Origin: Desulfatitalea sp. BRH_c12 | GTDB lineage: Bacteria; Desulfobacterota; Desulfobacteria; Desulfobacterales; Desulfosarcinaceae | Assembly: GCA_000961655.1 (NCBI GenBank) | Contig: LADR01000065.1 | Coordinates: 62,001-126,000, forward strand | Direction: 5' to 3' | DNA length: 64,000 nucleotides | Part shown: piece after piece, positions 5,603 through 44,918 of the stretch | How the letters are laid out: each line of letters starts with the position of its first letter | Numbering within the stretch: the first letter of the stretch is position 1 | Translations under genes and position numbers: made by a program | The notes under the pieces: model-generated | Told to the model about the DNA's origin: nothing | Seen by the model: the letters and a program-made list of their open reading frames with translations, nothing else | Databases searched by the model: none

Positions 5603-5738
5603 CCGTAGGGGCGACCGCCGGTGGCCCCTACAGCGGGCCTCGTGCCCATAAGCCTCGTGCTCCTCAAAGTGTCCATTCGCCCCTGAGAAAGAGCGACATT
5701 TCTGAAATGCGGCCCACACGCAAATGCGGTTACCCTGG
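5603..5738. repeat. Mosaic dispersed repeat, family C (copy 1)
   Basis: Three blocks recur in order at 38247-38559. The first is GTAGGGGCGACCGCCGG. The second runs through AAGCCTCGTGCTCCTCAAAG to GTCCATTCGCCCC. The third is CATTTCTGAAATGCGGCC followed by CGCAAATGCGGTTACCCTGG (5697-5738). Spacing differs between the copies. The rest of the gene-free interval 5391-5914 shows no coding potential. Confidence 0.75.
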
Positions 5739-5914
5739 AACTCTCCTGTAAAGCGCTTGAATTTTAAGGCTTATCGTAATACAATCCATTCCGGCTATGG
5801 CACGTAACTCCCGACGTATGAAACAAACGTGCGCAAAGCACATCAGCATATCTTTCTACTTTCACTTTAACCGTCACCTCCGGCAATGCCGGTTTGACAA
5901 ACACCGTAACCGAA

Positions 5915-6634
5915 ATGCTAAAAAGCGAATCGCAAACCTACGACGACTATATTAAAGCCCTCACCGATATCAGCCGGGCCATCACCTCCGACCTCTATCT
6001 TGAGGATCTGTTGAAGTTGATCGTCATGGTGACTGCCAAAGTAACGAGTGTGGCGATATGTTCCTTGTGGCTGATCGACGATAGCATTTCACCGCCTAAA
6101 ATCCGCCTGAAGGCGACCCAGGCCATCGCCCCCGAGTATGTCAAAGATCGCAGTCTCGCGCTCGATGAGGGCGTGGTTGGTTATGTGGCCACTCACAAAC
6201 GCCCTTTGATCATCAAAAACGTGCTGCGCAACCAACGTTTCAAGGAAAAAGAGATGGCCCGGCGCTTGGGACTTGTTTCCATGATCGGGGTGCCACTGCG
6301 CCTCAAAGACGATAAAGTCATCGGTGTGCTCAACTGTTTTACCAACGAACCGTATGATTTTACGGCAACCGAAGTGAATTTGCTCACCGCGGTGGCCAAT
6401 CAGGCGGCCGTAGCGATTCTGAACACTGAATTGATGGTCAAGACCAAGGTGATTCAGGAGGAGTTGGAAACGCGCAAACTGGTCGAGCGGGCCAAAGAGA
6501 TTCTCATGCAGCGCATGAACATCAATGGTGAGGCTGCTTACCACTGGTTGCGCAAGCACAGCATGGATTCGCGCAAATCCATTCGTCAGGTCGCCGACGC
6601 CGTCCTGCTGTCCCATGAAATAAACATGTCGTAA
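5915..6634 (+). CDS. GAF-ANTAR transcription antitermination regulator
   Basis: A cytoplasmic signal-responsive RNA-binding protein of 239 residues. A GAF sensor domain occupies about residues 15-170 (LYLEDLLKLIVMVTAKV, then LDEGVVGYVATHKRPLIIKN and MIGVPLRLKDDKVIGVLNCF). A short coiled linker and a C-terminal ANTAR three-helix domain (about 180-235, KLVERAKEILMQRMNINGEA, then SIRQVADAVLL) follow. ANTAR domains bind paired hexaloop RNA hairpins and prevent terminator formation. Such a structure lies about 310 bases downstream in the leader of the FMN glutamate synthase. The ATG at 5915 is used; an in-frame TTG at 5894 is possible. No receiver Asp is present, so the signal is likely a GAF ligand. 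Confidence 0.9.
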   Translation: MLKSESQTYDDYIKALTDISRAITSDLYLEDLLKLIVMVTAKVTSVAICSLWLIDDSISPPKIRLKATQAIAPEYVKDRSLALDEGVVGYVATHKRPLIIKNVLRNQRFKEKEMARRLGLVSMIGVPLRLKDDKVIGVLNCFTNEPYDFTATEVNLLTAVANQAAVAILNTELMVKTKVIQEELETRKLVERAKEILMQRMNINGEAAYHWLRKHSMDSRKSIRQVADAVLLSHEINMS

Positions 6635-6942
6635 AGCACCTGTCTTTTCTTTCCTATGATGCGGTGAGCCGTTCAGCGCTACTGATGGTCTTCTCATTTA
6701 ATTAGCGAAAATTAACTTTGAGGCCATCGCCATCATGCTTTTAGGTCCAGCGCAGGCAAATTGCAAAACATCCCTTGAACGCAATCGCATCGTGTAATGG
6801 CCTTCGATAGGGCCGGCACGCCCGATGTTGGTAAGTCTCTCATTTGCAGGGCGGGCAAATCTTCAGCAAACTGCCCAACCGCAATTTTAATCTTGACTAA
6901 TAACATCAGTGCCACTAAATACATCACGAATAATTAAGAAAG
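6635..6942. other. Gene-free stretch between ANTAR gene and leader
   Basis: AT-richer than its neighbours, with no credible ORF. It presumably holds the promoter for the glutamate synthase transcript, because the hairpin leader begins at its end. I could not pick a single convincing -35/-10 pair. Confidence 0.5.
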
Positions 6943-7065
6943 CTTGTCAACGGCGACAGGTCGAAGCGTTTCGGCGCTCCAAATCCGCACAGAGATGTGT
7001 GCGGCCCCATATTCGTTAAAAAGACAAAGGCGTCTGCATTCCCCATGGGGGGCAGGTGCCTTTTT
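6943..7065 (+). promoter_or_regulatory. Candidate ANTAR-responsive leader: two hexaloop hairpins plus intrinsic terminator
   Basis: Hairpin 1: CTTGTC (6943-6948), loop AACGGC, GACAGG (6955-6960). Hairpin 2: CGCAC (6986-6990), loop AGAGAT, GTGTG (6997-7001); an alternative register pairs CCGCACA with TGTGCGG. Both hexaloops have A at position 1 and G at position 4, the known recognition signature of ANTAR proteins. A strong hairpin follows (7026-7063; AAAGGCGTCTGC pairs with GCAGGTGCCTTT, with an inner CCCCATGGGG), ending in TTTTT and lying 97 bases before the start codon. The layout is that of an attenuator. A mutually exclusive fold could form between GGCCCCAT (7003-7010) and ATGGGG (7045-7050). 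Confidence 0.75.
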
Positions 7066-7161
7066 GCGTTTATACGCTCTGACGCCATTGATTGCGCGGG
7101 TGCAACCGGCACGATTAGTGCGGTGGAACACTTTTCAGTTAGGAAAAAATAAGGAGGAAAA

Positions 7162-8802
7162 ATGATGCGTTTTGATAAAAGAAATGATGTTTTGGGGACA
7201 GTGAATCGCGGGAACCCCGCGGAATCAGGTCTTTGCACCCTTTGCCGCGCCGATTGCGAAGGCAAATGCGAAACCTGGCTGTCAGGCCTGGTCGGCCGCA
7301 AGTTGCTGTATCCTCGCGATTTCGGCCTCGTTACCGCCGGAGCAAATAACACGACGCATGTGGGGGTATCCTATAATGCCTTACGCATCCAGGGCTACGC
7401 ATACGGCGCCCACGGGCTGAATGGCAATCTTTCCACCGACCCCGACGATTGCATTTTTCCCAATGTCGATCTGAGCACCGAGTTCGGCAACGAAGTTAAG
7501 ACCAAAGCCCGTATTCCCCTGATGACCGGCGCTCTGGGATCCACCTTCATAGCGGCCAAGTACTGGGATTCTTTCGCGGTCGGCGGTGCCCTGGTGGGCA
7601 TGCCCATCGTGATCGGTGAGAACGTGGTTGGCGTGGACCGCCAGTCGGAAATCAAGAACGGAAAAATCACCAAAGCCCCTGAGTTGGACCGGCGCATCGA
7701 CACCTACTTGCGCTATTTTGACGGCTATGGCGGTATTTTCGTCCAGATGAATGTGGAAGATACCCGCAATGGTGTCGCCGAATATGTCGCCGGCAAATAT
7801 GGCGATAAATGCATCATCGAATTGAAATGGGGGCAGGGCGCCAAGGATATCGGCGGTGAGATTCAGGTCACCAGCCTCGATTATGCGCTGTTTTTGAAGA
7901 AACGCGGGTATGTGGTCGATCCCAACCCCGAGTTGCCCGAGGTGCAGGAAGCCTTTGAAAAAGGCGCTATCCGATCCTTTGCCCGTCACAGTCGACTGGG
8001 CGGCACCAACCTGAGCAGTGTGGACCTGGTACGCGAGGATTTCATGAAGAGCGTTGATTACCTGCGCAGCCTGGGCTTCAAACGGATCTCGCTCAAAACC
8101 GGTTCCTATGGCATGGAAGAGTTGGCCATGGCTATCAAATTCGCCTCGGATGCCAAAATGGATCTGCTGACCATTGACGGCTCGGGCGGCGGCACCGGCA
8201 TGAGTCCCTGGAACATGATGCAAAGCTGGGGCGTCCCCTCGATCAACCTGCACTCCAAGGCCCATGAATATGCCAGCATTCTGGCGGCCAAAGGCGAGCG
8301 CGTCGTGGACCTCTCTTTTGCCGGCGGGTTTGCGCTTGAAGACAGCATCTTCAAAGCATTGGCGCTGGGCGCACCTTACACCAAGATGGTGTGCATGGGG
8401 CGCGCCGTGATGGTCCCCGGCTATCTTGGCGCCAACATCGAAGGCGCGCTGCATCCCGAGCGCAGGGAAAAGGTATGCGGCAATTGGGACCGCCTGCCCA
8501 AAACGGTCACCGATATCGGTTCGACACCCGATGAAATCTTTGCCTCCTATTTTGATATTCAGAAAAAGATCGGCAAAGACGAAATGAAGAAAATTCCTTA
8601 CGGTGCGATGGCTTTCTGGACAATGGCCGACAAGCTTTCCTGTGGTTTGCAGCAGTTGATGGCCGGCGCGCGCAAGTTCTCGATGAAGCAGGTCTCACGC
8701 AACGACATCTTCGCTGCCAATCGAGAGACTGCCGTCGAAACAGGTATCACGCATTGCGCGGATGTCAACGATGCCTTTGCCAAAAAGATTCTGAATAGTT
8801 AG
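7162..8802 (+). CDS. FMN-binding glutamate synthase family protein
   Basis: This 546-residue protein matches the central and FMN domain of glutamate synthase large subunit (GltB2-like) without the glutaminase domain. An N-terminal cysteine group (CTLCRADCEGKC near 26-37) precedes the TIM-barrel. Within it are LKWGQGAKDIGGE near 223, ISLKTGSYGMEELAMAIKFA near 310, and the FMN-phosphate region TIDGSGGGTGMSPWNMM near 336 with GGFALEDSIFKALALGA. It should make glutamate, or a related amidotransfer product, using ammonia from a partner. An AAGGAGG at 7151 sets the start. The attenuator-like leader and the ANTAR gene upstream suggest control by nitrogen or redox state. The terminator at 8847 makes it monocistronic. 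Confidence 0.9.
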   Translation: MMRFDKRNDVLGTVNRGNPAESGLCTLCRADCEGKCETWLSGLVGRKLLYPRDFGLVTAGANNTTHVGVSYNALRIQGYAYGAHGLNGNLSTDPDDCIFPNVDLSTEFGNEVKTKARIPLMTGALGSTFIAAKYWDSFAVGGALVGMPIVIGENVVGVDRQSEIKNGKITKAPELDRRIDTYLRYFDGYGGIFVQMNVEDTRNGVAEYVAGKYGDKCIIELKWGQGAKDIGGEIQVTSLDYALFLKKRGYVVDPNPELPEVQEAFEKGAIRSFARHSRLGGTNLSSVDLVREDFMKSVDYLRSLGFKRISLKTGSYGMEELAMAIKFASDAKMDLLTIDGSGGGTGMSPWNMMQSWGVPSINLHSKAHEYASILAAKGERVVDLSFAGGFALEDSIFKALALGAPYTKMVCMGRAVMVPGYLGANIEGALHPERREKVCGNWDRLPKTVTDIGSTPDEIFASYFDIQKKIGKDEMKKIPYGAMAFWTMADKLSCGLQQLMAGARKFSMKQVSRNDIFAANRETAVETGITHCADVNDAFAKKILNS

Positions 8803-38661: not shown

Positions 38662-39489
38662 GTGAGCACGACCCAGCGCACCGTTTTGCTTTGGCAGAAC
38701 ACCCAAAAACAAAGCCTGCCGATGGCTATCCTCGATGAAGAGCCGCTTTCCATCCGCGTTCAGGGCAAGGGATATGCCGTGGTCATGCGGACGCCAGGAG
38801 ACGAGCTGGCGCATGCCGCTGGATTCTGTCTCACCGAAGGCCTGATCGACACGCCGGACGATATTGTCAATCTGGCTGTTTGCGATGGCGGCGATACCAA
38901 CGTCGTCACCGTGACCTTGACGCCGCAGCGCCTGAAAAAGGTTTCCGCCCACCTGGACCGGCGCAGTTATATCAGCCAAAGCAGTTGCGGGTTGTGTGGA
39001 AAAACCGTGATCGAGGAGCTCGTGCAAGAGTTGCGGCCGATACAGGCGCGGACCAGCGTGCCTCTGGATCTGGCCGAGCAGCGCTTGCGCACCCTGGATG
39101 TGCACCAGCCCATGCGCGATCGCAGCGCCGCCAGTCACGCGGCCGTGTTGTTCGATGCACACCTCGAACCCTTGGTCGCCGCCGAGGATGTCGGCCGCCA
39201 CAATGCTCTCGATAAAGCCATTGGCCGGCTTTTCCTCGAACGCCGCCTGCCGCTGGCCAGGGTGGTTATGATGTCCTCGCGGATCAGCTACGAACTGGTG
39301 CAGAAGACGGCACGTGCGCGCATTCCCATCTTTTTGGCCCTTTCACGGCCCACCCGGCTGGCGGTCGACCTGGCCGCGCAATTGGGCATTTCCCTGGCCG
39401 GCACGGCCAAGCCAGCGGGTCTGTATCTTTATTGCCATGCCCAGCGGTTCGTGCAACCGGCTTCACCAGAGTCGAAAGTGGACCGTTGA
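38662..39489 (+). CDS. fdhD: Formate dehydrogenase accessory sulfurtransferase FdhD
   Basis: A 275-residue protein that passes sulfur from a cysteine desulfurase to the molybdenum or tungsten cofactor of formate dehydrogenase. Seen: ILDEEPLSIRVQGKGYAVVMRTPGDELAHAAGFCLTEGL-type N-terminal region, the sulfur-carrying cysteines in SSCGLCGK near 109, HAAVLFD, AAEDVGRHNALDKAIG and MMSSRISYELVQK. The start is GTG with AAAGGTGAT upstream. The final nine residues (after PAS) are encoded by a family A dispersed repeat, which therefore adds a foreign C-terminus. No fdh genes are in the window. Confidence 0.95.
   Translation: MSTTQRTVLLWQNTQKQSLPMAILDEEPLSIRVQGKGYAVVMRTPGDELAHAAGFCLTEGLIDTPDDIVNLAVCDGGDTNVVTVTLTPQRLKKVSAHLDRRSYISQSSCGLCGKTVIEELVQELRPIQARTSVPLDLAEQRLRTLDVHQPMRDRSAASHAAVLFDAHLEPLVAAEDVGRHNALDKAIGRLFLERRLPLARVVMMSSRISYELVQKTARARIPIFLALSRPTRLAVDLAAQLGISLAGTAKPAGLYLYCHAQRFVQPASPESKVDR
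39456..39485 (+). repeat. Short dispersed repeat, family A (overlaps the fdhD end)
   Basis: ACCGGCTTCACCAGAGTCG then AAAGTGGACCG. It supplies the last codons of fdhD and ends nine bases before the dihydrouridine synthase start. Confidence 0.6.
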
Positions 39490-39493
39490 AAGT

Positions 39494-40519
39494 ATGATGA
39501 ACGAAACGTTGACCTCTTTGCTCAATCGACCGCTACGGATAGGTCGTCGAACGATCGACTCTCGCCTGGTGCTGGCCCCGATGACTTGCCTGGGGCATGT
39601 GGCCTTCCGCCATCTTCTGGATGAACTGGGAGGATGCGGTCTGATGTTTTCAGAAATGTGCAGCGCCGCCCGCGTTCCGTATGAAAATAGACACTCTTCA
39701 GCCTATTTCCGTTGGCGTGACGCCGAAGCCGGACGGCTGGCAATACAGATTCTGGGTGGGGAACCTGAGCGCATGGCCGCCGCCGCGCGCAGGATCGAGC
39801 GCGAAGGGCTGTTCGGTGTTGATATCAATCTGGGCTGTTCGGTCAGAGAGATATGCAAGTTCAATCAGGGAGCGGCTTTGCTCAAAGACCCTGCGGCCAC
39901 GGCCCGGATGGTACGGCATGTGCGGGAAGCGATCCATTGCCCCTTGATGGTCAAGTTCCGCACCGGCTGGGAAGACGATGCGCGTCTGCCGGTCGATCTG
40001 GCCCGCCGCTTGGAGGATGCCGGAGCCGATGCATTGACCTTTCACCCCCGCGTGGCCCCAGATGTGCGCACCCGGCCGGCGCGTTGGGAGTATATTGCGC
40101 GGGTCAAAGAGGCCGTTGCCATCCCGGTGTTCGGCAACGGCGATGTGTTCGAGCCCGAAGATTGCCTGAAAATGCTTCAGACCACCGGCTGTGACGGGGT
40201 GGCGTTGGGGCGCATCGCCATCGCGCGCCCCTGGGTTTTCAGCCAGTGGCGCCATGACGTGGCGTCTCCTGCTGAAAATTACGCGGCCACGGCCCTGCGC
40301 CTGGCCGATCTGATCGAGCGCTATTTCGAACCGGTACGCGCCCTGCGCCGCTTTAAACGCTACAGCGCTTACCTGTGCGCTAACTTGTCATTCGGAAATA
40401 CGCTCTACAACTGCATCCGCAACGCCCCTGACATGACCGGTGTGCGCGCGGCGGTGCAAGCCTTTTTCAGCAACGAACCCCGCCTGCTGACGCGTCCCAA
40501 TGTGAATTTGCTGCGCTGA
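39494..40519 (+). CDS. tRNA dihydrouridine synthase family protein
   Basis: A 341-residue FMN enzyme that reduces uridines in tRNA. It opens with RIGRRTIDSRLVLAPMTCLGHVAFRHLL, has MFSEMCSA near 57, QILGGEPERMAAAARRIE near 85, and the active-site loop DINLGCSVREICKFNQGAALLKDP, where Cys is the proton donor. MVKFRTGW, VFGNGDVFEPEDC and GVALGRIAIARPWVF complete the barrel. The usual loop is NMGCP; here it is NLGCS, a common variant. The start ATG at 39494 immediately follows a repeat. Which Dus subtype it is cannot be told. Confidence 0.93.
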   Translation: MMNETLTSLLNRPLRIGRRTIDSRLVLAPMTCLGHVAFRHLLDELGGCGLMFSEMCSAARVPYENRHSSAYFRWRDAEAGRLAIQILGGEPERMAAAARRIEREGLFGVDINLGCSVREICKFNQGAALLKDPAATARMVRHVREAIHCPLMVKFRTGWEDDARLPVDLARRLEDAGADALTFHPRVAPDVRTRPARWEYIARVKEAVAIPVFGNGDVFEPEDCLKMLQTTGCDGVALGRIAIARPWVFSQWRHDVASPAENYAATALRLADLIERYFEPVRALRRFKRYSAYLCANLSFGNTLYNCIRNAPDMTGVRAAVQAFFSNEPRLLTRPNVNLLR

Positions 40520-41021: not shown

Positions 41022-42641
41022 TCAAACCGTATAAAGGACCACCAGGCAGCGCGTGGGAAGGCTGGACAAGCTTTTCAGCTTGTGGGCGATGTCCGAGTTA
41101 AAATGGATCGATTCGCCGGGTTTGAGGACATGCTCCCGGGTTCCCAAGGTGAGTCCAAGATCCCCTTCCAGGACATAGATGAACTCTTCGCCATCATGTT
41201 TGTACGCCACGGGCTTGTGGTCGTTGTGGGCCTCGATGGTGATCATGAAAGCCCGCAGGTGGTTGTTGGCCGCTTCCGGGGTCAATGTGGCGTAGCTGTA
41301 TGCCTGGGTGCGTTGATAGTAGGCCTGCGCGCGGCGGTCGCGGATTGCGGTCTGTTCTTCTTTGTGCAGAAAGGTGCTCGGATCGATCTGCATGGCCTGG
41401 GCCATACGTAAAATGAAGCTTACGGGGGGCGAGAGCTGATCGTTTTCCACCTGGGCGATGAATTCGGGGCTCTGGCCAGTGAGATGCGCCAACTCCTCCT
41501 GGCCCCAGTTGCGGGCCTGGCGCAGTTGGCAGACCATCGCGCCGAAACCGCCTTTGGGGGCAGGCGCCTCGGCGTTTATGGCGCAGGTGGCATCGGTCAG
41601 CCGGCGCATGGCCGCCTGCTGGGCGCGTTGATTCAACAACGGCAACAAGGTGCCGGCATCGGCGGCAATGCCGATATCGGCAATCTGAAAAATAGGTGCG
41701 GACGGATCGCGGTTGATGGCCACGATGGTCTCGGCCTCCATGATGCCGGCGGTATACTGGACCGCTCCCGACGTGCCGACCGATATCAGAAGGCGTGGAT
41801 GCACCGTCTTTCCGGTTTGACCGATCAGACGATCTTCCTCCACCCAGTGATACAGCACGGGCGGACGGGTCGCGCCCACTTCGCCGCCCAGGGCCGCGGC
41901 CAGTTCCCTGGCCATTCCGAAACCGCGCATGTCGCCCAGCCCGGCACCGCCAACGACGACAACGTCCGCATCTTCCAGGCGGGCGGTTTCAGCCGTCTCC
42001 AGCGCGCGCGCCACTAGTCGCGCATTTGCGGGCCACGTCACCTGTTCGAGGGCGATGTTCTCAATATGCCCGCTGACCGGAGCGGTGCAAGGCAGCGCGC
42101 CGCCGTGCGGCTGAACCGTGACGAATGCAGTCGAAAAGCCATCGGCAAGGGTGATGTCGGCCATGATCTGACCACCCCAGGCCGGGCAGCGGCCGACGAA
42201 GCCGTCCGCCCCGACAACCAGTTCGACGCAATCGGCGATCAGTCCGGCCTGACAGCGTTGGGCGCCGATGGCGGCCGTTTCGCGGCCGAAATCATTCAGC
42301 GGCAACAGGACCAGCCAAGGTTGGCGCTGGTGCACGAAATCAGCTAAGGCCGCTGCATGGACATCGCAGCGTGGAACGGCAAGATGGGCGTGCCGCAGGC
42401 AGTGGACCGCCGCGACGCCCAACGAAAGCGCCTGGTCGGCAGCCTCTTCGCACGTCACGCAGGCCGATAGATCAAACGCGTGCGTTGCATCGGCCGCGGC
42501 CGGCGCACCCAACAACACCACGGCGATGTCCGCATTGGTGTGGGCGGTCATCTTCTGGGCCTTGGCAAGCACTTTCAGGCTATCGTGCCAGTGGCGCCGG
42601 GTCCTCAAATCACCATAAATCCAGATAAGGCCTTGGGTCAT
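41022..42641 (-). CDS. etfA: EtfA fused to an XRE helix-turn-helix and cupin domain
   Basis: A 539-residue continuous frame. Residues 1-345 are an electron transfer flavoprotein alpha subunit, with the FAD-binding GQTGKTVHPRLLISVGTSGA (274-293) and IVAINRDPSAPIFQIADIGI. Residues 365-427 form an XRE-type helix-turn-helix (LRQARNWGQEELAHLTGQSP, then IAQVEND, QLSPPVSFILRMAQAMQI). Residues 464-537 are a cupin (YKHDGEEFIYVLEGDLGL and PGESIHFNSDIAHKLKS, with His482, Glu486 and His520 as possible metal ligands). The HTH-cupin half matches PuuR-like regulators. EtfA normally ends near residue 330, so this joins a redox flavoprotein to a DNA-binding sensor. The gene overlaps etfB by four bases. Confidence 0.92.
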   Translation of the reverse strand: MTQGLIWIYGDLRTRRHWHDSLKVLAKAQKMTAHTNADIAVVLLGAPAAADATHAFDLSACVTCEEAADQALSLGVAAVHCLRHAHLAVPRCDVHAAALADFVHQRQPWLVLLPLNDFGRETAAIGAQRCQAGLIADCVELVVGADGFVGRCPAWGGQIMADITLADGFSTAFVTVQPHGGALPCTAPVSGHIENIALEQVTWPANARLVARALETAETARLEDADVVVVGGAGLGDMRGFGMARELAAALGGEVGATRPPVLYHWVEEDRLIGQTGKTVHPRLLISVGTSGAVQYTAGIMEAETIVAINRDPSAPIFQIADIGIAADAGTLLPLLNQRAQQAAMRRLTDATCAINAEAPAPKGGFGAMVCQLRQARNWGQEELAHLTGQSPEFIAQVENDQLSPPVSFILRMAQAMQIDPSTFLHKEEQTAIRDRRAQAYYQRTQAYSYATLTPEAANNHLRAFMITIEAHNDHKPVAYKHDGEEFIYVLEGDLGLTLGTREHVLKPGESIHFNSDIAHKLKSLSSLPTRCLVVLYTV

Positions 42642-43462
42642 GATCCTAAAATACCTTTGGTCGTCAACTCTTCGATCAATGCATCGACCTGTTCGCGCGG
42701 TTCGCCTGTCAGCATGCGGCAGGTCCGGGGGCGTTTGATTTTACGGAGGTTCGAAACCCGTGTGGGCGATCCGGCAAGACCGACACTGTCCACCGACATG
42801 CCCACATCGGCCAACCCCCAGGTTTGTATATCCAGAGGCGCGTGGGCGGCAGCGATGCCGCCCAAGGCGATGGATCGGGCTTGATAGGCACGCGGGTGAA
42901 TGGTGACCGCCATCGGCGATTGCACCTGCCATGACTCTTCCCAGCCATCGATGAGGCGCTGCAGACGCCAATGAGATGCGGTGGCCCCCGGGGCGGTTGG
43001 CGCGTCGGCCAGCGGGTCGGTGAGGGCGGGTTCGAGCTGTTTGACACCGCCGATAAAAGGAATGGCCAGCACCGTGGCCGATTGGGGGCCCACCTGTCCC
43101 GTGTCGCTGTCCGACGTGCGCGTGCCGAAAAAAACAATATCGTAGGGCATAAGGCGCGCAATGCCGGCGGCCAGCACCCGGGCCGTGACCAGTGTGTCCG
43201 AGCCGGCCAGGGCCGGACCGCAGATCAGCACGGCCCGGTCAACCCCCATGGCCTGCGCTTCGGCCAAAACCTCTGCACTGACGGGTGGCCCCATCGAGAG
43301 CGCTGTTACCGAGCCGCCCAGGGCCGCTTTCAAACGCAGGGCCGCTTCCAGGGCCGGTCGATCGAAGGGATTCAGCTCGCTGTTGTCGGGTGTCCGGCGT
43401 CCCACGCCATCCGGCGCGGTGCGCACCACCGACTTGATGCATACGATGCTATGAACAGGCAT
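42638..43462 (-). CDS. etfB: Electron transfer flavoprotein beta subunit
   Basis: A 274-residue EtfB. It begins VHSIVCIKSVVRTAPDGVG and has NPFDRPALEAALRLK near 31, a central nucleotide-binding domain (VLICGPALAGSDTLVTARVLAAGI, then IVFFGTRTSDSDTGQVGPQSA) and a C-terminal arm ending EELTTKGILGS. In conventional EtfB the AMP or second FAD lies in the GPQSA region. It is cotranscribed with the acyl-CoA dehydrogenase upstream and the EtfA fusion downstream, so it likely carries electrons from acyl-CoA oxidation. Confidence 0.93.
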   Translation of the reverse strand: MPVHSIVCIKSVVRTAPDGVGRRTPDNSELNPFDRPALEAALRLKAALGGSVTALSMGPPVSAEVLAEAQAMGVDRAVLICGPALAGSDTLVTARVLAAGIARLMPYDIVFFGTRTSDSDTGQVGPQSATVLAIPFIGGVKQLEPALTDPLADAPTAPGATASHWRLQRLIDGWEESWQVQSPMAVTIHPRAYQARSIALGGIAAAHAPLDIQTWGLADVGMSVDSVGLAGSPTRVSNLRKIKRPRTCRMLTGEPREQVDALIEELTTKGILGS

Positions 43463-43524: not shown

Positions 43525-44670
43525 TCAGTTCCCCAACACGTCGCGTGCGATGACCATGCGATGGACTTCGGAGGTGCCTTCGTAAATACGGGTCACGCGC
43601 GCATCGCGGTAATATCGTTCGACGGCGTAGGCTTTGGAATAGCCATAACCGCCATGAATCTGCACCGCCAGGTCGGTCACCGTGCAAGCGGCCTCCGAGG
43701 CGAACAACTTGGCCTGGGCGGCCGCGCGACTGACTGCTGCCCCCTGGTCTTTGAGCAGCGCTGCACGATAGACCATCAGGCGCGCGGCTTCCACCTGGGT
43801 CGCCATATCGGCTATCATCATCTGAATCGCCTGATGTCGCCCCAGCGGCACGCCAAACTGCTGGCGCTGATTGGCATAACGCACGCCCTCGTCCAAGGCC
43901 GCCTGGGCGATGCCCAGGGCCTGTGCGGCAATGCCGATACGGCCGGTATCCAAGGCGGCCATGCCGATGGTCAGTCCCTGGCCTGCCCGTCCGAGCAGAT
44001 GGTCGCGGGGAATTCGGCAGTCATAGAGGCGAATCGATGCAACCGGATTGGCGCGCATGCCGCAGAGATCTTCCAGATCGCCGACCACGAAACCCTGGGT
44101 GCCTCTTTCGGCCACCACCACACTGATGCCTTTTCGGCCGGCAGCCGGATCGGTGCGGGCGAAGATCAGGCAAATGTCGGCGATGCCGCCGTTGGTCACG
44201 AAAACCTTGTTGGCATTGACCAGCCAATGATCAGACGCGGGCAAGGCTGTGGCCGTGATAGCACCGGCATCCGAGCCCACATTGGGTTCGGTCAGGCAGA
44301 AAGCCCCAATTTTGCGTCCCTGAGCCAGTGCGGGCACCCAGCGTTGTTGCTGCTCGGGAGATCCGAAAGCAAGAATCGGGTAGAGCGCCACACTGTTATG
44401 AACGCTCAAGCATAAACCTACCGCGGCGCTGACCCGCGACACCTCTTCGATGATGATCACATAGCTGAGTGCATCCAGTCCGGCGCCGCCCAGTTCAGGG
44501 GGCGCCTGGATGCCAAAGTAACCCAGCCGGCCCATTTTCTCGACCACTTCCCACGGGAAACGTGCTTCCTGATCGATTTCGGCGGCAATGGGACGCAGTT
44601 CCTGGTCGCAGAAAGAGCGGACAGTCCTGCGTAGCAAACGATTTTTGGCGGTTATAAATGGTTCTGTCAT
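43525..44670 (-). CDS. Acyl-CoA dehydrogenase
   Basis: A 381-residue FAD enzyme of beta-oxidation or a related acyl-CoA route. Family signatures: FCLTEPNVGSDAGAI near residue 125, KVFVTNGGIADICLIFART near 155, LGRAGQGLTIGMAALDTGRI near 220, QFGVPLGRHQAIQMMIADM near 272, IHGGYGYSKAYAVERYYRDARV near 340 and the catalytic-Glu region RIYEGTSEVHRMVIARDVLG. The start at 44670 has AAAAGG upstream. The long frame upstream runs through a repeat and is not coding. Chain-length specificity cannot be judged. It donates electrons to EtfAB encoded next. Confidence 0.95.
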   Translation of the reverse strand: MTEPFITAKNRLLRRTVRSFCDQELRPIAAEIDQEARFPWEVVEKMGRLGYFGIQAPPELGGAGLDALSYVIIIEEVSRVSAAVGLCLSVHNSVALYPILAFGSPEQQQRWVPALAQGRKIGAFCLTEPNVGSDAGAITATALPASDHWLVNANKVFVTNGGIADICLIFARTDPAAGRKGISVVVAERGTQGFVVGDLEDLCGMRANPVASIRLYDCRIPRDHLLGRAGQGLTIGMAALDTGRIGIAAQALGIAQAALDEGVRYANQRQQFGVPLGRHQAIQMMIADMATQVEAARLMVYRAALLKDQGAAVSRAAAQAKLFASEAACTVTDLAVQIHGGYGYSKAYAVERYYRDARVTRIYEGTSEVHRMVIARDVLGN

Positions 44671-44783
44671 GACAACCTTTTGGGTGAGCCTTAGACCGTT
44701 GGGCAAAATTGCCGCGACATTACCCCTTCCCGGCCCAGTTGTAAATATGTGGTCCGTTCGGATAGGTTTTTTTTCGCTCAGTT

Positions 44784-44814: not shown

Positions 44815-44918
44815 AATAGAATATATAACTCGGACCCCTGAAGGGGCGAACCTTGTGTTCGCGCGCATGGCCTAAACGGCACCGTTGGGTGCAAATTGAG
44901 GTGACCAACCTGAAATAA

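Follow-up and report, generated by a model that had tools for sequence, protein, structure and literature searches.

Trifunctional proline utilization A (PutA) is a catabolic redox flavoprotein that gains control over DNA through a DNA-binding domain fused to the same chain, according to the consulted part of PMC5293562. The XRE-cupin transcription factors (PuuR, ErfA, PauR, and PsdR; structure 1y9q) combine an HTH_3 domain with a following Cupin_2 domain and are found among metabolic genes; in Pseudomonas, such factors inhibit neighboring metabolic genes, and palindromic sites are described for those with several targets (PMC7901475, consulted part). For electron transfer flavoproteins (ETFs), the consulted parts of PMC5109826 and PMC11887813 describe separate ETF/dehydrogenase sets for separate substrates in sulfate reducers.

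We analyzed a gene of Desulfatitalea sp. BRH_c12 that encodes an ETF alpha subunit (EtfA), a Cro/C1-type (XRE) helix-turn-helix (HTH) domain, and a cupin on one chain. The gene lies in a stretch of 64,000 nucleotides (contig LADR01000065.1, positions 62,001 to 126,000), here referred to as the window, and coordinates are those of the window unless another locus is named. The fusion resembles PutA in architecture, since in both a redox flavoprotein and a DNA-binding type of domain form a single chain. PutA carries an N-terminal ribbon-helix-helix, whereas the fusion carries a C-terminal XRE HTH plus cupin; in addition, PutA is the dehydrogenase itself, whereas the fusion is an electron carrier with possible DNA binding. 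It differs from the XRE-cupin transcription factors in being joined to an enzyme subunit, in standing last in its operon, and in having an acidic HTH. Each half of the protein is already known; the joined EtfA-HTH-cupin form is a variant of an enzyme-regulator fusion that we did not meet among the listed results of a search of the open-access literature. Among these, the consulted part of PMC5373536 treats XRE, cupin, and EtfA as separate proteins and does not describe the fusion, nor do the consulted parts of PMC2700814, PMC6085437, PMC12316311, and PMC3582634.

Architecture and operon of the fusion gene

The fusion gene (41022..42641, minus strand) encodes 539 amino acids (aa) from an ATG start in a single, uninterrupted frame; over the same positions, the plus strand contains stops in the translated frame, and the coding strand is the minus strand. 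In the window's protein, Pfam detected the ETF domain (residues 21 to 179), the ETF_alpha FAD domain (222 to 300, 94.6 bits), HTH_3 (372 to 422, 31.1 bits against a cut-off of 23), and Cupin_2 (473 to 535, 51.9 bits), all above their cut-offs, which confirms the joint frame described in an earlier sequence-only reading of this DNA. The four models also match all 43 members of an alignment that includes the window's protein (E ≤ 0.001).

Based on Pfam, fold comparison, and residue conservation, we assigned residues 1 to 345 (41607..42641, minus strand) to the EtfA part with its ETF and FAD domains. A linker follows at residues 346 to 365 (41547..41606, minus strand; predicted model and alignment), then the XRE HTH domain at residues 366 to 428 (41358..41546, minus strand; Pfam, model, and structure search), within which the recognition helix spans residues 392 to 399 (41445..41468, minus strand; model and alignment of fused sequences). 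The cupin domain occupies residues 446 to 539 (41025..41306, minus strand; Pfam, the H482/E486/H520 triad, and fold matches). The linker is 18 to 22 residues long in 42 of the 43 aligned members; in the predicted model, its residues 355 to 363 have pLDDT values under 50, and the tether of the HTH-cupin half departs from the FAD domain. Given the confidence values of the models (pLDDT 81.0 and pTM 0.58 for the full-length fusion, 76.6 and 0.49 for the HTH-cupin half alone), we left the placement of the domains relative to one another uninterpreted.

The EtfA part is complete, as had been proposed: in addition to its two domains, residues R259, Q275, T276, S291, Q295, and D322, which we take to bind FAD, are invariant in all 43 aligned members. 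In fold comparison, ETF alpha chains match the predicted EtfA model at Z scores of about 20 to 29. The closest solved relatives by sequence of both EtfA and EtfB are bifurcating ETFs, with bifurcation a possibility for the window's ETF; the best matches are Bcd-EtfAB, CarDE, LctBC, and Thermotoga EtfAB (5ol2, 6fah, 7qh2, 7koe, and 4kpu). ETFs of the Bcd-EtfAB kind are also among the best fold matches, and the FAD-site residues are kept. These known chains match the EtfA part alone, to about residue 349, and have neither HTH nor cupin. Further differences are a GGAG in the fusion, compared to GGRG/GGKG in 4kpu and 7koe and GGMG in CarE, and a Tyr after Gln, compared to His in most of these chains and Phe in LctC.

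The fusion is the third gene in the order acyl-CoA dehydrogenase-etfB-etfA/HTH/cupin, and the overlap with etfB and the position behind the dehydrogenase are as previously read. The etfB gene (274 aa; 42638..43462, minus strand) shares a 4-bp ATGA stop/start overlap with the fusion gene, and the dehydrogenase gene (381 aa; 43525..44670, minus strand) has a start agreed on by its relatives, its longest frame beginning at 44868. The top solved relatives of the dehydrogenase are of the Bcd/SCAD type. Homology and operon position identify the fusion product as an ETF alpha subunit; it would pair with EtfB and serve a dedicated short-chain acyl-CoA dehydrogenase. A predicted sigma-70-like promoter (TTTACA, 17 bp, TAATGT; 44717..44745, minus strand) precedes the dehydrogenase start by 75 nt. 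A promoter of the same form was seen in 8 of the 12 near loci inspected, the window included, although the pattern was picked after viewing those loci. The pattern TTGAC-N14-19-TGnTA, likewise set post hoc, occurs in 17 of 27 listed upstream regions (one of which, L105, is a near-copy of L089), compared to 48 occurrences in 1.46 Mb on both strands, true sites included. Convergent to the operon on the plus strand are genes for FdhD (38662-39489) and a DusB-type tRNA dihydrouridine synthase (39314-40519); their longest frames overlap, therefore the start of the synthase is probably downstream.

Distribution, neighborhood, and origin

Within the order, a model of the whole fusion matches 41 of 291 genomes (E ≤ 1e-90), representing 22 of 138 genera; in a sample of 297 genomes from the whole phylum it matches 18, and the window's genome is counted in both sets. 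Two of the 41 matches are partial: G002 is matched in two pieces, and G063 is partly matched and proved full length when the locus was read. In a search of 60 genomes that included the window's own, we aligned single chains from 20 loci, which are 51 to 75% identical to the window's protein (one of them, L051, is without its last few residues). Carriers include Desulfatitalea (among them the isolate Desulfatitalea alkaliphila), Desulfosarcina widdelii, D. alkanivorans, D. cetonica, strain NaphS2, Desulfamplus, and Syntrophaceae. The fusion is also present in metagenome-assembled genomes (MAGs) labeled Nitrospirota and Myxococcota, labels that may be wrong.

An error of sequencing or assembly that joined two genes, a possibility raised in the sequence-only reading, has a negligible probability. 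The window shows no sign of such an error. Two relatives are broken, one into two overlapping frames from about residue 269 (L059, 9189-10821) and one by an early end at residue 507 (L111, 4063-5586); in contrast, EtfA and XRE-cupin share one frame at 55 of 62 named loci, including those of the isolates D. widdelii, D. alkanivorans, D. cetonica, and Desulfatitalea alkaliphila. Six of the other seven are truncated at the end of a contig, and the last (L123) encodes EtfA without the XRE-cupin. We rejected a sequencing-error fusion given single-frame homologs in many genomes and the whole fusion on two complete Desulfosarcina chromosomes, those of D. widdelii and D. alkanivorans. No homologs encoded as two separate genes were found among these loci: in L123, the sole unfused member, the HTH-cupin is absent rather than separate. 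The EtfA-HTH-cupin fusion is real and conserved across many sulfate reducers and related anaerobes. The L123 gene (5980-7038) encodes an EtfA of the fused clade beside a retained dehydrogenase and etfB; provided that the assembly is correct, it has lost the HTH-cupin by natural deletion.

We counted upstream genes at the 64 loci for which 2.3 kb or more of upstream sequence was available; a few of these loci are present in both of the sets used. An upstream etfB is found in 63 of them and etfB together with the dehydrogenase in 60. The three-gene unit is not seen in full at L093 and L155, where the dehydrogenase is missing, at L081, whose upstream sequence contains runs of N, and at L113, where the fusion stands alone with neither gene beside it. 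The sequence-only reading had asked whether the fusion always lies in beta-oxidation loci; a full beta-oxidation operon is not always present, as L113 illustrates and as do the neighbors outside the three genes, which vary. Looking for a clue to the substrate, we found that no other cluster of neighboring genes recurs in more than 10 of 59 loci. At L113, the fusion (5646-7229) is preceded by 5.6 kb without a same-strand etfB or dehydrogenase, and the opposite strand carries a free XRE-cupin as well as a fragmentary dehydrogenase gene.

Thiolase and hbd motifs adjoin the fused operon at three loci (L109, L127, and L161), and at two others (L102 and L120) a thiolase motif lies on the opposite strand. 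Pfam was applied to the thiolase of L138 and L109 and to the hbd of L109 and L127, and it confirmed thiolase and hbd in L109 and hbd in L127; all other assignments of these genes are motif counts. The closest free-standing XRE-cupins in these genomes, 38 to 44% identical, have similar company. In a set of 21 loci (20 hand-picked from search matches, plus L062), a same-strand second acyl-CoA dehydrogenase lies no more than 0.41 kb downstream of the free XRE-cupin in 20, an hbd C-terminal motif lies just upstream in 18, and a thiolase motif lies 1.0 to 1.5 kb upstream in 17. The usual operon of the free form is thus thiolase-hbd-XRE-cupin-dehydrogenase, and the same regulator family occurs unfused in butyryl-CoA-type operons. 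This arrangement is seen across the order in most of the loci concerned (L129 to L148 and L062, the latter at G000:C34:8001-28000). The window's genome has an XRE-cupin/dehydrogenase pair of its own, which lacks an hbd motif and is located on the same contig, about 41 kb ahead of the first position of the window; its XRE-cupin is at G000:C34:19997-20509. Given that thiolase and hbd occur both at the three fused loci and in the free XRE-cupin operons, short-chain acyl-CoA oxidation is indicated, the three fused loci being the main hint pointing to this pathway.

In a tree of XRE-cupins, fused and free forms fall on opposite sides of one branch (SH-aLRT 86), and in a tree of EtfA, L123 falls within the fused group (91 for its grouping with L078 and L083; a starred set of 29 rows holds L123). 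Both are quick trees with SH-aLRT values only and many open forks, and the contig-cut L125 was scored as a group of its own. With modest support, one fusion and one later loss would be the simplest account: a single event probably attached an XRE-cupin of the family found in short-chain acyl-CoA operons to the EtfA of one such operon, and almost every descendant that we saw has retained it. In one MAG labeled Myxococcota, a free XRE-cupin (L115, 3362-3958) is divergent from the fused operon, and the two forms share one intergenic region.

The HTH domain, the cupin, and the upstream region

The fused HTH keeps its fold in the predicted model, sequence search finds Cro/C1 HTH structures, and R374, T388, and E399 are invariant in the 43 aligned members. 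Conservation of the recognition helix, on which the earlier reading had placed weight, is divided. The start of the helix is conserved, with P392 in 43 and E/D393 in all of 45 thinned fused sequences, whereas its center is variable and poor in basic residues, and the central contact positions 381, 396, 397, 400, and 402 vary. Helix 3 differs in three distant fusions (L149 to L151). Presumed DNA-facing sites, which we chose from the contacts of the 434 repressor, are more conserved than other exposed sites in fused sequences (permutation p = 0.011) but not in free ones (p = 0.43).

The net charge of residues 366 to 428 averages −1.72 in fused sequences, with positive values in 5 of 53 rows (from 55 matches, of which two short ones were dropped by a length filter, with the window added), compared to +2.22 in free-standing sequences, with positive values in 19 of 23 (from 26 rows classed as alone, less two contig-cut fusions and the distant paralogue L066). 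Only 1 of 17 further fused loci, a few repeats included, has a positive HTH. Lys and Arg are less frequent in the fused HTH at positions 368, 377, 378, 396, and 402, and the one clear gain is at 412. We regard the odds that the fused HTH binds DNA as about even.

The cupin residues His482, Glu486, and His520 are at the positions given in the sequence-only reading and are invariant in all 43 aligned members, the window included. Among solved structures, 1y9q matches the HTH-cupin half best; in the fold comparison, the rows were filled by ETF and cupin chains, such that the HTH was barely tested there. The iron enzymes HppE, HEPD, and MPnS are among the closest solved HTH-plus-cupin structures and close fold matches, and their iron ligands presumably have the same His-x3-Glu...His form, which would fit a catalytic site in the fused cupin. 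However, the triad is also fully conserved in the free-standing XRE-cupins, which are placed in metabolic operons where regulators would sit, and it is therefore not diagnostic for an HppE-like enzyme. The HppE class uses O2 or peroxide, whereas the named fusion carriers are strict anaerobes. HppE, HEPD, and MPnS are catalysts, and we saw no pointer to turnover in the fusion; a catalytic role appears very improbable. In the fused cupin, K476, Y480, K481, K521, and K523 are conserved, and the basic residues K476, K481, K521, and R531 are more uniform than in the free cupin, as if suited to an anionic ligand.

We searched 47 regions upstream of the dehydrogenase, three near-copies having been dropped, for exact dyads with gaps of 0 to 14, using base shuffles alone for comparison. 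No operator common to lineages was found among them, in that no inverted repeat is common to more than 5 of the 47 regions. The best 4-bp dyad occurs in 5 regions (3 to 4 in shuffles), the best 5-bp dyad in 3 (1 to 2), and the best 6-bp dyad in 3 (1). Total numbers of 4-, 5-, and 6-bp dyads are 762, 244, and 80, compared to shuffle means of 626, 157, and 42, indicating some excess. Two of the dyads found in three regions belong to near relatives, CCGCCG-N5-CGGCGG in L070, L073, and L124 and TTCAA-N-TTGAA in L079, L103, and L114, and neither occurs in the window's 200 bp. Dyads specific to a clade are present in some Desulfosarcina and some Desulfatitalea-group loci. In L070, L073, and L124, which belong to the Desulfatitalea group, the GC-rich dyad is located between the promoter and the dehydrogenase gene, 36 bp ahead of the start codon. 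In the Desulfosarcina-clade loci L046, L051, L053, and L054, the palindrome TTCAATTTGAA lies 37 to 38 bp upstream of the −35 box of the dehydrogenase promoter.

Possible roles of the fused regulator

Our main reading, to which we assign a probability of about 0.48, is a PutA-like autoregulator, in which the ETF alpha subunit incorporates an XRE-cupin and represses its own operon. We favor it because Pseudomonas XRE-cupins are local repressors and because the fused DNA-binding domain of PutA works in this way, as described in the consulted parts of PMC7901475 and PMC5293562. The EtfA part would pair with the adjacent EtfB, hold FAD, and accept electrons from the dehydrogenase, while the fused XRE-cupin would most likely act as a local repressor of the operon, and the signal may consist of a metal and an anionic ligand bound by the cupin triad together with the conserved Lys and Tyr residues. 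The ETF would then be both worker and gauge of its pathway, as PutA is for proline. Coupling to the flavin, through the FAD domain that tethers the HTH-cupin, is hypothetical, and redox control by the fusion protein is something that we infer. It is doubtful that the ETF itself is the transcription factor, with docking at the FAD domain or a redox change freeing the HTH-cupin for the promoter or pulling it off, such that electron load would set the expression of the pathway. Several observations count against the autoregulator: the acidic HTH, both in the main charge set and in the further loci, the variable contact positions of the recognition helix, the missing common operator, the lone fusion of L113, and the retention of dehydrogenase and etfB without the regulator half in L123.

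The same acidic charge, with its loss of basic residues, and the same missing operator would be explained if the HTH no longer binds DNA and has become part of an accessory domain, in which the HTH-cupin dimerizes the ETF, or lets a metal-bound ligand adjust docking of the ETF to the dehydrogenase, as a regulator at the level of the enzyme. The greater uniformity of the basic cupin residues in the fused form and the start of the tether at the FAD domain in the predicted model also favor such a role, which we consider possible, if a minority view. Against it, the HTH fold persists with its three invariant residues, and the presumed DNA-facing sites are the more conserved ones in fused sequences. 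Conservation is higher in the cupin than in the HTH (0.91 compared to 1.30 bits in fused sequences), yet this is true of the free relatives too (0.84 compared to 1.06 bits). Neither the autoregulator nor the accessory domain is settled, because of the acidic HTH and the missing operator. It is unlikely that the fusion is one of convenience, in which an ordinary XRE-cupin repressor is tethered to EtfA and responds to its cupin ligand alone, uncoupled from flavin and electrons, the fusion fixing the ratio of regulator to enzyme. A low-confidence and presumably flexible linker of near-constant length is consistent with this arrangement, as is the local repression by Pseudomonas XRE-cupin factors (PMC7901475, consulted part); nevertheless, it shares the charge problem of the autoregulator, and a repressor made in the amounts of an enzyme subunit would be unusual unless the state of the enzyme matters.

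If the HTH has been recruited for a role other than DNA binding, the fusion would illustrate clearly how a regulator can become a component of an enzyme. If the autoregulator reading is true, autoregulation by a flavoprotein would be extended from a dehydrogenase, as in PutA, to an electron carrier. If there is a regulator inside the ETF, the self-contained dehydrogenase-ETF unit would offer a directly testable answer to how sulfate reducers switch their ETF/dehydrogenase sets.
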